A stretch of DNA of 64,000 nucleotides from Thuidium tamariscinum (lineage: Eukaryota; Streptophyta; Bryopsida; Hypnales; Thuidiaceae). Position numbers and translations under genes: made by a program. The notes under the pieces were generated by a model, which saw only the letters and a program-made list of their open reading frames with translations, did not search any database and had not been told where the DNA came from. The stretch is taken from the NCBI GenBank assembly GCA_947034885.2, contig OX344754.2:8935001-8999000 (forward strand), in the 5' to 3' direction. Below, one piece after another: positions 3,760 to 44,620 of the stretch; position 1 is the stretch's first letter, and each line of letters opens with the position of its first letter.

Positions 3760-7039
<3,280 letters not shown>

Positions 7040-27667: not shown

Positions 27668-28936
27668 TGGAAAAAAATTGTTTCATTTATTTTGAATATA
27701 ATTGCAGACGTGATCTTTGGTAAAGAAATGTAATTGTTCACATCAATATAAATGGATTAAATGTCCAATATGAAGATGAAATTCAAATTATTGATATCCA
27801 AGGTTGTATATAGTATATACATCCCAAAACAAGTTATAAAGTTGCTTTGAAAATATTTAGCAAATTAGTAATTTCCACTACAAAAAAAGAGGGGTATAAA
27901 TGACTGTAGAGGGATGACTCAGAAATGACTAAATGTCCGGTTTGACTAAATAGTGACTAGTACCTCTGTAATTGCACCAACCCAACTGAATTTACATAGT
28001 CCTAGTCATTTTTCAGTCATTTTTCAGTTATGAGTGCGACTAGAAGATGAAGACATGATAGACAACAAAATTCATCTACATTTTTTCATTTAGAGTGCCA
28101 TCAATAAGAGCACAAAAGGAAGGGAAAAATCAGCGTGGATGCTAGAGTCATTAATGAATATGACATAGTTATTGATTGTAACTTAATTTCATTACTTCAC
28201 GAATCGAAAATGACTAAAGGGTTACAAAAAGGCTAAATTTCCATATTTTAAGCCAAGGACGGGCAGGGCAGCTTGCTAACGTGGATGGAAATTGTTCTAA
28301 GACTACTAGAATGCGACTGCACTTTACTACTGTGTGACTCTAAAATGACTGCAAGGTCTTTTGTAGGGTCATGTTGTAATTTTTTGCTCTAAAGATGGGC
28401 ATGATATGAAAAACATTGTAGAGTATGATATGAAAATACATTGTAGAGCTGAAAATAATTTCACACCCCTATTTTATACAAGAAAAAATGGTTTAATTTA
28501 TTTTTCAATTCTAAAAATAACTCTTTATTAAAAGTTCATTTTTCTTCATTATTGATGCAATGGTCATCTAAATGTATCCTCAAGAAATATTTGAATTTTT
28601 AATTGTGCCATTTTAGTTCATTTCTCAATTTATTCTAAAAATCATTTCATACATTATTTGAGTTGGGCATATAGTGTATGGTGTATGGTATTTTTTGGCA
28701 ATAGAAATCTATAGTCATTATTGGACAAAGCTCAAAATTATAGGTTGAAATTATAATTTATTAAAAAAAATATATTTAAAGAGTCTAAAAATGACTTGTT
28801 GGTACATGATTTATGATAGATACACTAAGTGAGCTTCCCAATGATGTAATTGTACTTCACTACTATGTAACTTAAGAATTGCTACAAAGTCTTTTGTAGG
28901 GCTATGCTAAAAAATTTTGCTTTTAAGATGGAAAAG

Positions 28937-29084
28937 CACTATAAAAAAAATGGGGGGATAAATGACTTGTTCACAATGACTGCACCAACAACAATGACTA
29001 CAAAATAGTCATTTTGTAGTCATTGTTGCCAATGTAGTCATTGTAGACAAGTCATTTAATTTATCCCCCTATTTTCTTGTAGTA
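28937..29084. mobile_element. Small CACTA MITE nested in copy A (148 bp)
   Basis: The ends are CACTATAAAAAAAATGGGGG and, reverse-complemented, TACTACAAGAAAATAGGGGG, followed inward by ATAAATGACTTGT on one side and ATAAATTAAATGACTTGT on the other. AAG flanks it on both sides (28934-28936 and 29085-29087), a 3-bp target duplication as expected for CACTA. The same insertion is present in copy B at 43305-43435, so it preceded amplification of the large element. Confidence 0.85.
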
Positions 29085-29999
29085 AAGACAATATGCTAAC
29101 ATAGACAACAATCATTTCAAAATTACTAGGATGCAACTATACTCATCTGATTTATGATTTTTTAACATTCATATCCTAATACCTTTCTTGAGCTAATAAC
29201 TTTTCTTTTAGTCATTCCAATAATTCTACTCCTTGTTTATTTTCTTCATTTTCTTTTAAAAGAAAATTTCAATAGAATACTTTTGTCTTTTTTTTTGGAA
29301 ATGATGCATTACAAGTGGCCTTTGTCTTTGTTAGCATTAAAAAAAAAATTTCCTTAGGATCCATTTGTATGATTTGTTTAAACTCCTATCTATATGCCAT
29401 TATGCCAATAATGACTTTTGAAAATTTGTGCCATTGTCAATGAACTACTTTTGAACACTTCATATGCCTTACACTTGAATTACTAAATGTCCCAATAAAC
29501 ATACAGTAAGATATTTAGATGAATTCAATGACATTTGTTAAGTTCTATTTTTTCCTTGTGCAAATACCACCACCACTACTTTAGTTTTACTACAAAATGA
29601 TTTTCTACAACTGCCAAATGACTTCATGTAACTACCAAATGACTTCCTGTAACTACCAAATGACTACTCAATACTTTTGAACTACTACACAACTACTCTA
29701 CTACTACTTTGGCACCTTGTGTCAATCCTTTTCAAATCTTTTAGCAAATTTTATTTATAACTTTTGATTAGAGGCTTAAAATCTAAAACAAATTTTTGGA
29801 GATGAAAGTGAGATTGATTCCCCAACTTTAATTAGTTCAAAGTTTTTTGAAAAAAGTTAGTCTATTATGCCTCAATGAGGTTAAAAATATGACTTGTAAT
29901 GCAATTCCTGCGTTTTACATATCCCACAAGCTTTGTCTTGCCTACTACTATCCTTCCTCTATAAAAGGCTTGTCATTTCATCTAATTGTATCCACATAT

Positions 30000-30123
30000 T
30001 AAGTGGATTTTGAAATGATATATGGCATATGGTGTATGGTGTATTCTACATGATATATTATATATGATGAATTGTGTATATGTTGTATGGTGTATTGTAT
30101 ATGTATGGTGTATGGTGTATCAT
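30000..30123. repeat. TATGGTGTA-rich simple repeat inside copy A
   Basis: Repeated ATGGTGTATGG and TATATGATG units form a simple-sequence tract. The complementary tract (ATACACCATACACC) is in copy B at about 42290-42410. It is a property of the element and not an independent locus. Confidence 0.7.
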
Positions 30124-31319
30124 TGTGGAACTTTGAATGTATTCATATGTGACTGTTGAATGACTACTTTAGAGAAGGAAGACATAACTAAAATATAACT
30201 CACCCTTTCTCAAAAATGTCTCAAAAATGACTAAGATGCAACTTCAAAACCCCCTTATTATTAAGTGCCACGTGTCAAAGACCCCGCCCTTAAACGTAAC
30301 TATATCACAACTGGAATATGACTACAGTTTTACTGACATCATTGTCCACATCAGCATTAGTCAGACTGTCTGACAACTAAATAATGACTGTCTGACAATT
30401 GAACAATGACTGACACGTCACCAAAACTTCAACTATACCGCGACTTAGAAATGACTTATAAATTAACCTACGTGGACAGCCACGTAGGTGAAATTTTCCC
30501 AAAAATGGTCAGCTGCCCACCCTTTTCACAAAATTTTCAAGTAAAATTTCTTTATCCCTTAGACAGATTCATCTATTAGTCATCCAATTTCCAAATGGAT
30601 GGTGATAATACACCCGCAGTCATTTAAAGAATGACTTGTCCACAATGACTACAGGGCCTAAAGTCATTTTTCAGTCATCTCGGTCCAAAATGACTCATTT
30701 TCAGTCATTTTTCGCAGTCATTTATACCCCAGTTTTTTTGTAGTGATTCATCTACTGAAAATGGGAGAATATATTGCCTAAGGATTGTTTAACAGTTAGA
30801 GATTAGAGCACTATTTTCTATGTCAAAGACCAAGAATCTTCATTTGTGATTTGATAAAGGTGAAAATTAGCTCCAATGCCTTTATAACAAGTGGCCAACC
30901 CGATTTGATGAAACAAATTTTTTATAAAAAAATAAACATGATTTAACATAGCGAGAACTTGCTGAATTAAGTGCACCAAAAAATGAAATGCCAATTCTTG
31001 AGCTAGGAGCCAATGTCAAATGTAATTTATAAAATATTATTATCTTCAACAAATCACATCCATTGGATTTTATGCAATTGACCTCAAGGAAGATTGACCC
31101 AAGCTCTAGGTGTAGAGCAAAATTGAAAATTTCAGCCCCCCTTTTTACTAAGTTTTGTTAAATTAGCTTTAGTTAGCTTCTTGGCATCAAGGCCTTTACA
31201 TATAGGAAATTTAGCCCCTACTCTAATTTTATTCTAATAAGTAGTTGAGGCCAATCTTTAACCCAAAAGGAACTAAATTTTTTTGCACTTAGCCTTAAGG
31301 GATATTGATGAGGCCTTTA

Positions 31320-38020: not shown

Positions 38021-39516
38021 GTAATTGTCTAGAAACTAAAACTCCTTATTATTTACATCTCATTAATCAAAATGTAATGATTGAAAAATTTTCACACATG
38101 TATGGATCAAAAAAACTAATTTCAATTTCTAAAGGGGGGAAAAGAAAATTTTCTTGTATGCTCAAAGTTTTTGACCGAGTCAAAAACCACATATCATACA
38201 TTAATTTTTTTAACCATATAGTCAAAAGTTATGAAAATTGTTGTGCCTTAAAGTTATTTCTTGTTCACATTTTGTGTGAAGATTTCAAATTAAAAAAGTA
38301 AAAATTTCATTTGTAGTGAGCTACCCAAATTGCTAACTAAAGATGTTGAAAATGTAGTTTGGCCCTATATGGATTAAGCATGCAATTTTTTTTTTATAAT
38401 GCCTCTTCATATAAAAAAAGTCTTGATTTTCACATATCGATAATGCCTATGTTTTTTCAGCTCACAAAAACTCAAACCATTTTGAATTTCCCTTCACATT
38501 CAATTATAACTTTGTTTCCAAAATTGCATCTTCATCTATGCTTGAGGGCCAAATGCTTTGAACCTCTAAGGATCAAGTGCCCAATTGACGTAGACAAGAA
38601 ATTTTGGATAGGTTCAAACAAAGTCAATTTTTAATAGATATTTACAATTTCTTCAATACATGTGAAAACGTATCATTTTGGAAGGAATGTAATTTTTTCC
38701 TAATTGAGTTTCAAATCAGAATTACATTGCCTAAGATGCTTTGGGTAGCATATAGAAATCTCTTCTTATATTTTTGAAATATGGTAAGTATGTAACTAAT
38801 ATGACAATATAGAATGCAAATATAAAACAATGACTATGTCTAGTGCATAAACCTAACCCTAGGAGGAGTTATATTGTGTTGATTGTATCAAAAAAGGTCA
38901 AAAACAAACTTATTCGTCTAACTTCAAATGTTTTATTCTTTCAATTTATTAGTCCAAAAATTAAAACTCTTTTCTACACTTTTCCTACAATAGTCTAATT
39001 AAATTTTGTATGGTTGAATTTCTTCCCAAATCTAATTTTTTTTTCTCCCTACCTAAAAAGTCACAATTTTTGACAATTTTTGCCCAAATATGGTCATTCT
39101 TTTAGAGATGATATCACTTTAGGGATTAGCCTCATAAAAAGCATCTATACATTATAAATAGGCTATAATTTCACATCTATATATATCTAAAACATCTTTT
39201 GACTTCTATTTTTCACCCTTTTATATTAAATGTATCTATTACAAATAGTAAATTGACCAATCATAAATTCTAATATAGGATGGAAATGACTAAAGTTAGA
39301 TTTGGTGAATTTTGATTTAGGTCCAATAAAATATACAATGTCTATCACGTTCAAGATAAAAAAGAGATTACATTTCAACAAGAAGTCTAAAATTGCTTTT
39401 ACATAATTTTAAGAATAAAACAAAAACTAATGTACTTTTACATTAATGGAAAAGAAAAAGGCAATTGGGTATATAGGAACTTTAAGACAATAAAAAAATT
39501 TAAAGACTTTATATTA
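38021..39516. other. Intergenic AT-rich DNA, nothing recognised
   Basis: Frames of 91-98 codons overlap here, but they show low complexity, AT-driven composition (Lys, Phe, Ile rich) and no motif. No repeat with clear ends was found. Confidence 0.6.
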
Positions 39517-39942
39517 TCTTTTTGTCTATTAATTATTAAATTTGGTAATGCAACACACTAACTTTAGTAGAAGTATTTACTTTAATTTATTTTTTGTTCA
39601 CAATTTGGCCCCAAGAAGCATCATCATTTGGTCCAACTCTACTACTATCATATTCTAGACTAAATTAATCTAGCTTTTGAAGTCACCATCCTTGGTCCTT
39701 GTCTTTGTGGTCTTCAAGTGCCATTGCACTTTAATCATCTAAACCAATGCAACACTATAAGAAACTTGTGTTTTAGATGATGGATTTTAAGTGACATCCA
39801 TTGTAGCACCCCATGTTTTTTATGTCCAAATTAAATTCCGTCATAACATTTTGATGTTATGACGGACATTAGTTTGTACATAAAAACACGGGGTGCTACA
39901 ATGAATGTCACCTAAAATTCGTCACCTAAACATAGGATTCTT
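39517..39942 (+). repeat. Direct-repeat copy 1 of a segment also at 41375 (unoccupied site)
   Basis: This 426-bp stretch matches 41375-41688 plus 44500-44611 with about five substitutions and no indels apart from the 2.8-kb insertion. It therefore supplies the empty-site sequence TGTCCAAATTAAATTCC for the CACTA insertion of copy B. Beyond 39942 the two copies no longer align. Confidence 0.9.
39753..39942. mobile_element. CACTA-type foldback MITE, 190 bp, lacking its last 6 bases
   Basis: It starts CACTATAAGAAACTTGTG and runs to AGGATTCTT, where the terminal GTAGTG seen in the other copy is missing. The two halves are inverted repeats of each other for about 88 bases (for example CATTGTAGCACCCCATG against CATTGTAGCACCCCGTG), and the short loop is itself palindromic (ATAACATTTTGATGTTAT). 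The whole element can fold into one hairpin. Confidence 0.8.
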
Positions 39943-41374
39943 TAACCAATTTTCTTTAAACCCTAAAAGACCAACATGCATTCATTGGTTGTATAGAAAT
40001 TTTGCACATGTGACTAGATATTTCTCTATTTTTGGCCTAAGTTTTAATGGAATGTGAAGGCTATAAATATCTTTCATATGCACTAAATTTCTTGACATTT
40101 CAAAATACAAGTCAAAAGTTATAGCCTTATATGTTGTTTTTTCCACATCTGGGCATTTTGGGCAGATTAGAAAAGATCACTTTTTCCAAAAATAAAAATT
40201 TGAAATTGATTTTCTAGAGTTATATATATGTGAAAAGCTTTGAATCATTCCATTTTGATCAATGAGTCAAATGTTATGAGGATTTATTGTTTATGAGCAG
40301 TTATGGATTCTTTACTCTAAAATAAACTTTGAAGTCCTTTATCTTATTTAATTTCAATATTTTTTGAAAAAGAATTATAGGATGTAGATTTTTTATTACA
40401 ACATTGCAACCATTGAGATTGGCATTATTCTATTCCATAATTAAATTCTTAACAATATAGTATTTCTTATCACTCTCTACTACTATCTATTTACTATTTT
40501 TTCCCATATATTGTACAATTCCAAATGCTATGAAATTTTTCAAGCATATATTCAACTTGTCTAGGAAAAAGAATCCAAATAAGAACCACTATTTTGGACA
40601 TTTTTTCATATAAAAGTGAGATTCCAAAGTATAGTTGCCTTGTTATTTGTAGGGCCAAAAAATGATTTTAAGTGAATTTGAATGCTTATATCTTTCAATC
40701 CACATGGTGGAAGTATTTGAAAATTTTACCGTGAATTATTGGCATAAGCTTTGTTTTAATTGTATAAGTAATCAAAATGTGCAAGAAGGTACTCACATAA
40801 AATGTAATGAGTGCAAAGAAGGAAGTACCATCGAAAGTACTTATGATTTTTCTTATTCTAAGGAACTCATGAACATATGCTTATGTACATAATTTGAAAT
40901 ACATGATTTAAATGAGTTCCACATATTCATAGAAGATTTGATGGTCATGTTACAAAGAAAAATAAGGAGAATTTAAAGAAAAATAGGAAGCCTACACCAT
41001 TCATAGTACTTCAATGTGCATTCAAATCCAAAAGGATTTGGGGAATCACAAGTGTTAAGACAATTTGGCATACATGAGAATATGCATGTCATGATATCTT
41101 TCTCTAATGTTCCAAATCAAGTTAAAAAAGATGGAGATAAAAAGAAAAAGGACATCCTACAAGGTAACCAACTATTGCCTTTTTGAGAAGATGGCACATG
41201 TTCTCAAGTTATCATACTATAAGATCCTAGTATTACATGTACCAAAATTTTTTTTTTTCAAAAATTTGGTACTTGCTCTAAAAATGGTACTTTTTGAGCA
41301 TGTTTTGTGAACACATAATCATGAAACTAGGGGTTAATGTATGATTTTCTAGGTGATTCTTAGGGTCCTACATG
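39943..41374. other. Spacer between the two direct repeats, no gene seen
   Basis: AT-rich. A 76-codon frame at 40662-40892 has two CxxC pairs, but it stands alone with no splice context or family match and is probably chance. Confidence 0.55.
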
Positions 41375-41688
41375 TCTTTTTGTCTATTAATTATTAAATT
41401 TGGTAATGCAACACACTAACTTTAGTAGAAGTATTTACTTTAATTTATTTTTTGTTCACAATTTGGCCCCAAGAAGCATCATCATTTGGTCCAACTCTAC
41501 TACTATCATATTCTAGACTAAATTAATCTAGCTTTTGAAGTCACCATCCTTGGTCCTTGTCTTTGTGGTCTTCAAGTGCCATTGCACTTTAATCATCTAA
41601 ACCAATGCAACACTATAAGAAACTTGTGTTTTAGATGATGGATTTTAAGTGACATCCATTGTAGCACCACATGTTTTTTATGTCCAAA

Positions 41689-44496
41689 CACTACAAAAAA
41701 ACTGGGGTATAAATGACTGCGAAAAATGACTGAAAATGAGTCATTTTGGACCGAGATGACTGAAAAATGACTTTAGGCCCTGTAGTCATTGTGGACAAGT
41801 CATTCTTTAAATGACTGCGGGTGTATTATCACCATCCATTTGGAAATTGGATGACTAATAGATGAATCTGTCTAAGGGATAAAGAAATTTTACTTGAAAA
41901 TTTTGTGAAAAGGGTGGGCAGCTGACCATTTTTGGGAAAATTTCACCTACGTGGCTGTCCACGTAGGTTAATTTATAAGTCATTTCTAAGTCGCGGTATA
42001 GTTGAAGTTTTGGTGACGTGTCAGTCATTGTTCAATTGTCAGACAGTCTGACTAATGCTGATGTGGACAATGATGTCAGTAAAACTGTAGTCATATTCCA
42101 GTTGTGATATAGTTACGTTTAAGGGCGGGGTCTTTGACACGTGGCACTTAATAATAAGGGGGTTTTGAAGTTGCATCTTAGTCATTTTTGAGACATTTTT
42201 GAGAAAGGGTGAGTTATATTTTAGTTATGTCTTCCTTCTCTAAAGTAGTCATTCAACAGTCACATATGAATACATTCAAAGTTCCACAATGATACACCAT
42301 ACACCATACATATACAATACACCATACAACATATACACAATTCATCATATATAATATATCATGTAGAATACACCATACACCATATGCCATATATCATTTC
42401 AAAATCCACTTAATATGTGGATACAATTAGATGAAATGACAAGCCTTTTATAGAGGAAGGATAGTAGTAGGCAAGACAAAGCTTGTGGGATATGTAAAAC
42501 GCAGGAATTGCATTACAAGTCATATTTTTAACCTCATTGAGGCATAATAGACTAACTTTTTTCAAAAAACTTTGAACTAATTAAAGTTGGGGAATCAATC
42601 TCACTTTCATCTCCAAAAATTTGTTTTAGATTTTAAGCCTCTAATCAAAAGTTATAAATAAAATTTGCTAAAAGATTTGAAAAGGATTGACACAAGGTGC
42701 CAAAGTAGTAGTAGAGTAGTTGTGTAGTAGTTCAAAAGTATTGAGTAGTCATTTGGTAGTTACAGGAAGTCATTTGGCAGTTGTAGAAAATCATTTTGTA
42801 GTAAAACTAAAGTAGTGGTGGTGGTATTTGCACAAGGAAAAAATAGAACTTAACAAATGTCATTGAATTCATCTAAATATCTTACTGTATGTTTATTGGG
42901 ACATTTAGTAATTCAAGTGTAAGGCATATGAAGTGTTCAAAAGTAGTTCATTGACAATGGCACAAATTTTCAAAAGTCATTATTGGCATAATGACATATA
43001 GATAGGAGTTTAAACAAATCATACAAATGGATCTTAAGGAATTTTTTTTTAATGCTAACAAAGACAAAGGCCACTTGTAATGCATCATTTCCAAAAAAAA
43101 AGACAAAAGTATTCTATTGAAATTTTCTTTTAAAAGAAAATGAAGAAAATAAACAAGGAGTAGAATTATTGGAATGACTAAAAGAAAAGTTATTAGCTCA
43201 AGAAAGGTATTAGGATATGAGTGTTAAAAAATCATAAATCAGATGAGTATAGTTGCATCCTAGTAATTTTGAAATGATTGTTGTCTATGTTAGCATATTG
43301 TCTTTACTACAAGAAAATAGGGGGATAAATTAAATGACTTGTCTACAATGACTACAAAATGACTATTTTGTAGTCATTGTTGTTGGTGCAGTCATTGTGA
43401 ACAAGTCATTTATCCCCCCATTTTTTTTTATAGTGCTTTTCCATCTTAAAAGCAAAATTTTTTAGCATAGCCCTACAAAAGACTTTGTAGCAATTCTTAA
43501 GTTACATAGTAGTGAAGTACAATTACATCATTGGGAAGCTCACTTAGTGTATCTATCATAAATCATGTACCAACAAGTCATTTTTAGACTCTTTAAATAT
43601 ATTTTTTTTAATAAATTATAATTTCAACCTATAATTTTGAGCTTTGTCCAATAATGACTATAGATTTCTATTGCCAAAAAATACCATACACCATACACTA
43701 TATGCCCAACTCAAATAATGTATGAAATGATTTTTAGAATAAATTGAGAAATGAACTAAAATGGCACAATTAAAAATTCAAATATTTCTTGAGGATACAT
43801 TTAGATGACCATTGCATCAATAATGAAGAAAAATGAACTTTTAATAAAGAGTTATTTTTAGAATTGAAAAATAAATTAAACCATTTTTTCTTGTATAAAA
43901 TAGGGGTGTGAAATTATTTTCAGCTCTACAATGTATTTTCATATCATACTCTACAATGTTTTTCATATCATGCCCATCTTTAGAGCAAAAAATTACAACA
44001 TGACCCTACAAAAGACCTTGCAGTCATTTTAGAGTCACACAGTAGTAAAGTGCAGTCGCATTCTAGTAGTCTTAGAACAATTTCCATCCACGTTAGCAAG
44101 CTGCCCTGCCCGTCCTTGGCTTAAAATATGGAAATTTAGCCTTTTTGTAACCCTTTAGTCATTTTCGATTCGTGAAGTAATGAAATTAAGTTACAATCAA
44201 TAACTATGTCATATTCATTAATGACTCTAGCATCCACGCTGATTTTTCCCTTCCTTTTGTGCTCTTATTGATGGCACTCTAAATGAAAAAATGTAGATGA
44301 ATTTTGTTGTCTATCATGTCTTCATCTTCTAGTCGCACTCATAACTGAAAAATGACTGAAAAATGACTAGGACTATGTAAATTCAGTTGGGTTGGTGCAA
44401 TTACAGAGGTACTAGTCACTATTTAGTCAAACCGGACATTTAGTCATTTCTGAGTCATCCCTCTACAGTCATTTATACCCCTCTTTTTTTGTAGTG
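41689..44496 (+). mobile_element. Non-autonomous CACTA element, copy B (2808 bp)
   Basis: The ends are CACTACAAAAAAACTGGGGT and, reverse-complemented, CACTACAAAAAAAGAGGGGT. AAA flanks both sides (41686-41688, 44497-44499). The matching empty site at 39826 has a single AAA, proving a 3-bp duplication on insertion. The element is near-identical to copy A but shorter by three losses of about 18, 21 and 22 bp, each at a short direct repeat. No coding frame is present. Subterminal ATGACT motifs are dense: seven or more lie within the first 150 bp counting both strands. Confidence 0.93.
43305..43435. mobile_element. Small CACTA MITE nested in copy B (131 bp)
   Basis: This is the counterpart of 28937-29084, at the same internal site and flanked by CTT on both sides (43302-43304, 43436-43438). 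It lacks one 18-bp unit between two copies of CAATGACTAC, so it is the shorter version. Confidence 0.85.
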
Positions 44497-44620
44497 AAAT
44501 TAAATTCCGTCATAACATTTTGATTTTATGTTGGACATTAGTTTGTACATAAAAACACGGGGTGCTACAATGAATGTCACCTAATATTCGTCACCTAAAC
44601 ATAGGATTCTTGTAGTGCAA

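Follow-up and report, generated by a model that had tools for sequence, protein, structure and literature searches.

The locus pairs a transposon nested in another transposon with a related empty site: in the 64,000-nucleotide stretch of Thuidium tamariscinum DNA analysed here (the window), one segment is present twice, once interrupted by a 2808-bp CACTA element and once without it. With a probability of about 0.9, we favour an account in which this element inserted into an older MITE that had earlier been copied locally, belongs to a pair of sister copies produced by a local move, and would have been mobilised in trans by relatives that carry a transposase. Related empty sites are the standard proof of transposon ends. 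As in other such cases, one sequence is found both occupied and empty, with a doubled and a single target, while here the empty site lies on the same chromosome at a distance of 1.9 kb, and the MITE family to which the target belongs serves as a further outgroup. The direct before-and-after comparison fixes the ends and the target rule of a moss CACTA family, places the events at this locus in a relative order, and connects a non-autonomous family with its probable transposase source. The locus is a clean case of an ordinary kind, useful for calibration, and does not represent a new type of system. No paper title on this locus was found in the literature on CACTA nesting, excision, moss or composite insertions, and an earlier description is possible.

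One target, occupied and empty

The features referred to below are as follows.

27876..30745, minus strand: element A, sister copy of element B, length 2870 bp, differing from B by 3 substitutions over 2807 aligned positions
39517..39942, plus strand: copy A, empty-site duplicate of the flanks of element B, 426 bp
39753..39942, plus strand: outer MITE in copy A, 190 of 196 bp; the terminal GTAGTG and the right target site duplication are missing
39828..39830: unoccupied target in copy A, where AAA stands once
39943..41374: interval separating copy A from copy B; it contains dispersed repeat R (39956-40730 plus 41195-41337), interrupted by a further insert (about 464 bp)
41375..41688, plus strand: left part of copy B, host DNA (41375-41610) and the left part of the outer MITE
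41608-41610 and 44618-44620: CAA target site duplication of the outer MITE
41611..44617, plus strand: outer foldback CACTA MITE split by element B, 196 bp without the insert and the second AAA
41686..41688: left AAA target site duplication (TSD) of element B
41689..44496, plus strand: element B, non-autonomous CACTA element, non-coding, 2808 bp
41689..41719, plus strand: 5' terminal inverted repeat (TIR) of element B, 31 bp
43305..43435, plus strand: CACTA-like MITE inside element B, 131 bp (148 bp in element A), with CTT on either side
44466..44496, minus strand: 3' TIR of element B, 31 bp
44497..44499: right AAA TSD of element B
44500..44611, plus strand: right part of copy B common to copy A

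The original prediction, that AAA flanks the insertion on both sides (41686-41688 and 44497-44499) and that a direct repeat at 39517-39942 carries the same flanks with one AAA (39828-39830) and no insert, is borne out. When 41375-41688 and 44500-44611 are joined without the insert and aligned with 39517-39942, the alignment is gap-free over 426 bp and contains 5 mismatches, at 39811, 39856, 39862, 39863 and 39916 (copy A coordinates). The comparison of one AAA with two supports the further claims that the states before and after insertion both lie in the window and that the element ends are fixed to the base. The repeat listing of the window contains an identical 300-bp pair at a spacing of 1858 bp and a 135-bp pair at 91% identity, which is far beyond chance; the distance between copies A and B is 1432 bp.

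Searching the genome (363 Mb, 19 contigs) with the 426 bp gave 90 matches, with 40 of 758 candidates scored. Among these, copies A and B are the only places that match the host part of the segment (39517-39752, 236 bp), with no third place, and every other match extends 23 bases or less into it. The duplicated segment had been read as flanking sequence throughout. Its coordinates are right; however, 39753-39942 is a CACTA-ended MITE, so the repeat is partly non-host. Among the matches scored, the suggested search for further flank copies finds none of the host part beyond A and B, while the MITE part is dispersed.

This outer MITE, almost half of the 426-bp repeat, is a dispersed 196-bp near full-length hairpin with CACTA ends. 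Its left end is CACTATAAGAA (from 39753), its right end in copy B is TTCTTGTAGTG with 44617 as the last base, and the right edge of copy A falls 6 bp short of the MITE end. Element B sits in the left arm of the palindrome, and the outer element being a foldback CACTA MITE, the insertion is one of a transposon into a transposon. From 30 MITE loci taken, 2 are copies A and B and 5 are second-orientation rows of listed places, leaving 23 copies, all found using copy A as query. A perfect 3-bp TSD flanks 19 of these 23, as in foldback MITEs. An excision footprint in copy A had been named in advance as the finding that would count against the empty-site reading, and none is seen, since in all 23 other copies examined a single AAA occupies the target column, as in copy A. 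Moreover, copies A and B have in common 20 departures from the family majority over 196 columns, which indicates that they are one lineage and that copy A was not overwritten by another MITE.

The same family helps to place the five mismatches. Copy A has the family base at 39811 (C, 22 of 23), 39856 (G, 23 of 23), 39863 (C, 20 of 23, with the T of copy B in the other 3) and 39916 (A, 23 of 23). At 39862 the family majority G (21 of 23) is in neither copy, the A of copy A occurs in 2 of 23 and the T of copy B in 0 of 23. Judged by these bases, the changes at four sites would have occurred on the occupied copy B, and the fifth probably did so too.

Copy A keeps a nearly perfect 190-nt hairpin, and in copy B the hairpin is split by the insert. 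The RNA folding energy is -100.7 for copy A and -87.4 for copy B without the insert, the five differences being arm mismatches in B. Element B's own site has the lowest folding energy among 19 sites of its family; however, an insertion preference for hairpins is rejected, because the folding energy of the joined flanks at these 19 sites does not differ from that of four nearby controls each (p = 0.50; p = 0.59 without the site of element B).

Element B, its family and a probable transposase source

Element B begins with CACTACAAAAAAACTGGGG and ends with CCCCTCTTTTTTTGTAGTG, and its 31-bp ends are 94% complementary in an inverted-repeat comparison, as expected of CACTA termini. Its longest stop-to-stop frame is 91 aa. 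The motif AATGACT/AGTCATT occurs 30 times, and ATGACT is present 35 times, compared with a mean of 1.9 and a maximum of 7 in 300 mononucleotide shuffles; these short repeats lie in both orientations, as subterminal repeats do, and are present beyond the ends too. Element B is a non-autonomous member of the CACTA (En/Spm, DTC) superfamily, with which it shares the CACTA ends, the 3-bp TSD, the short bidirectional subterminal motifs and relatives with a tnp2-type transposase. It differs in having no coding capacity and in holding a CACTA-like MITE of its own, whose first base is T instead of C. The nesting is thus of three levels, i.e. the inner MITE in element B and element B in the outer foldback MITE.

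Searched with element B as query, the genome yielded 114 matches, with 40 of 3775 candidates scored; of these matches, 19 are full-length. A perfect 3-bp TSD is found in 18 of these 19, and the exception is element A, with TTC on the left and ATT on the right, so that the sister copy is not a clean case; one extra A in its flanks would make TTC on both sides. Elements A and B differ by 0.1% in substitutions (2 derived in B and 1 in A), and the other 17 full-length copies are at least 2.5% from both. Since the sister of B lies 11 kb away in opposite orientation, the element most likely moved locally, in a direction that we infer.

Three gaps of 18-22 bp separate A and B. Reading them as deletions in B is rejected, for in the alignment of the 19 copies they are unit changes in short arrays that vary in the family, and in the second of them the extra unit belongs to element A. 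Nine family copies (L054-L062) are interrupted near element position 1003, where they have about 145-150 additional bp, probably a further nested element. In Sphagnum, CACTA elements are reported at 6.8% (PMC9946827); they and the unclassified repeats are the two most abundant types there.

With respect to the transposase, a PF02992 search gave 150 matches in the genome (150 of 627 candidates scored) and 0 in 14 control genomes. The TIR pattern has 52 exact matches (22 forward and 30 reverse), compared with 0 for the same pattern read backward. When the two lists were compared by eye, three TIR places were found less than 5 kb from a PF02992 match and in the same relative orientation. Two of the three (L074 and L075) were taken for comparison, with one end of each covered. 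Over 5.7 kb, counted from the first TIR base, the two are 95.7% alike, and they match element B over its last 145 bp at 86% and over the 31-bp TIR at 94%. A 591-aa frame of L074 matches Transposase_21 (PF02992) at 1.1e-64 and also Transpos_assoc, the latter below the cut-off of that family. Beside another transposase match, 2.4 kb from family copy L044, no matching ends were found (L073). Judging from the shared end, element B was presumably mobilised in trans by the tnp2-type transposase of these long CACTA elements of the same genome.

Order of events and origin of copy A

Only in B is the MITE complete, with its CAA TSD. On this ground it most likely inserted at locus B first, and the segment was then copied from B to A, ending 6 bp short. 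In this second step, 426 bp (236 bp of left flank and 190 bp of MITE) would have been copied to a site 1.4 kb upstream, where it most likely served to fill a double-strand break under repair; both this mechanism and the direction are what we infer. In the third step, element B would have entered the left arm of the MITE by ordinary cut-and-paste transposition, duplicating AAA, with copy A never hit. The order that had been proposed, in which the duplication came first and the CACTA element later entered a single copy, has the best support, given the family AAA (23 of 23) and the family bases in copy A.

Repair-mediated proximal duplications, as described by Pace et al. 2009 (PMC2671141), have a mean length of 162 bp and a maximum of 619 bp, and 753 of 1,136 duplicons lie less than 3 kb apart. 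Like copy A (426 bp, 1432 bp from its donor), they are a few hundred bp long with the donor within 5 kb. However, they were described in vertebrates, whereas this locus is from a moss and the donor includes a MITE.

The sequence between the copies also bears on their age and direction. Repeat R, about 920 bp in total with TTAACCCCTAAAG-like inverted ends (39956-41337), shows 79-86% identity to those relatives that were scored (40 of 7626 candidates; 73 matches). With relatives at no more than 86% and the duplication diverged by only 1.2%, the repeat is probably older than the duplication. A paralogue on C2 joins repeat R to the left flank of copy B and continues weakly beyond 41375, which would fit an older arrangement on the B side; at the copy A join, its alignment runs through A-rich sequence only. 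The insert in repeat R (40731-41194, about 464 bp) has a relative at C1:35490001-35490479, which is a 94% match of 40732-41209.

Copy A might also be a by-product of transposition, formed by a one-ended or re-replication event like the composite insertions of maize Ac. This concerns the origin of copy A and is compatible with the rest of the favoured account. In composite insertions (Zhang et al. 2014, PMC4270019), a transposon and its flank are copied nearby, as here; the right edge of copy A lies 6 bp from the MITE end, and TTA is present on both sides of copy A (39514-39516 and 39942-39944). However, the terminal GTAGTG is missing from copy A, so neither this edge nor the left one carries an intact transposon end, and a re-replication composite insertion is rejected on that ground. 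The TTA may be due to chance, at about 2% per register, a 3-bp match being easy in AT-rich DNA, and 426 bp at 1.4 kb fits the proximal duplications that are reported in PMC2671141. We regard such an origin as unlikely.

Another possibility is that the segment was duplicated after the insertion and copy A lost its element by a precise excision that left one AAA. CACTA-type elements do excise, and a perfectly restored site is indistinguishable from an empty site by sequence alone. However, the target column of copy A is that of all 23 other MITE copies, which also leads us to reject an excision footprint; copy A has the family base at 4 of the 5 differing sites, and one more event is needed. In rice, according to two studies (PMC4423477, PMC5023962), deletions or filler accompany almost all excisions, a "perfect" excision leaves both TSDs, and mutations pile up at excision sites, whereas in this locus the empty copy is the unchanged one. 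The rice pattern transfers in part only, since few of the polymorphisms in PMC4423477 (15 and 1) were CACTA. From the above, precise excision is very improbable.

Still less probable is a duplication after the insertion in which copying skipped the element by a template jump between the two AAA, making copy A a derived deletion. Repair synthesis is able to jump, and the end of copy A 6 bp short of the MITE end resembles abortive copying; but it is unlikely that a jump of 2.8 kb would start and land precisely at two 3-bp repeats, and the elements differ by 0.1% and the flanks by 1.2%, the opposite of what a younger duplication predicts. Finally, although the 426-bp copies are near-identical direct repeats around a 1.4-kb interior, there is next to no chance that they are LTRs of a small retroelement with 39943-41374 as interior, and we rejected this, for the 236-bp part is at two places only (among the matches scored, 40 of 758 candidates), the interior is at most 86% identical to its scored relatives while the copies differ by 1.2%, the outer MITE in B extends 6 bp beyond the repeat with its own TSD, and no further unit of copy A, interior and copy B was seen among the scored genome matches.

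The flanks differ at 5 of 426 positions (1.2%) and elements A and B at 3 of 2807 (0.1%; p = 0.0015), as expected if the duplication predates the spread of the sister pair. This contrast could reflect either an older duplication or local mutation at the insertion.

Differences close to the insertion point

None of the five differences is more than 86 bp from the insertion point, and the 236 bp of host DNA are free of them. With the insertion point set at 39830.5 (314 bases on the left and 112 on the right), the clustering over 426 bp has p = 0.010 for the maximum and 0.005 for the mean distance, or 0.026 and 0.014 when the adjacent pair is counted as one event, and the left/right test gives p = 0.018. 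Such clustering is unexpected under a uniform clock, so the number of differences may overstate the age of the duplication. However, the MITE and the host part also differ from each other (5 of 190 compared with 0 of 236, p = 0.017), and no clustering is found when the MITE is taken alone (p = 0.47 and 0.23). The pattern may therefore be a property of the MITE rather than of the insertion.

That the CACTA insertion itself mutated its target and gave the five differences on the occupied copy is a tentative idea, which we think is probably wrong. In grasses, Wicker et al. 2016 (PMC5023962) report a strong mutation effect at excisions and a slight one at insertions. The changes are close to the transposon there as well as here, but in this locus they sit on the inserted copy, and it is a single case. 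If the idea were true and general, insertion, beyond excision, would write local mutation clusters, which would be measurable in the duplicated or repeated targets of this moss.

Elsewhere in the window, reverse-strand open frames are present at 3760-7039, one of which is a chloroplast FtsH that suggests a moss as host. Its best match by E-value is from Ceratodon purpureus (88% over 95% of the query), and it is 99% identical to a metagenomic fragment over 71%.
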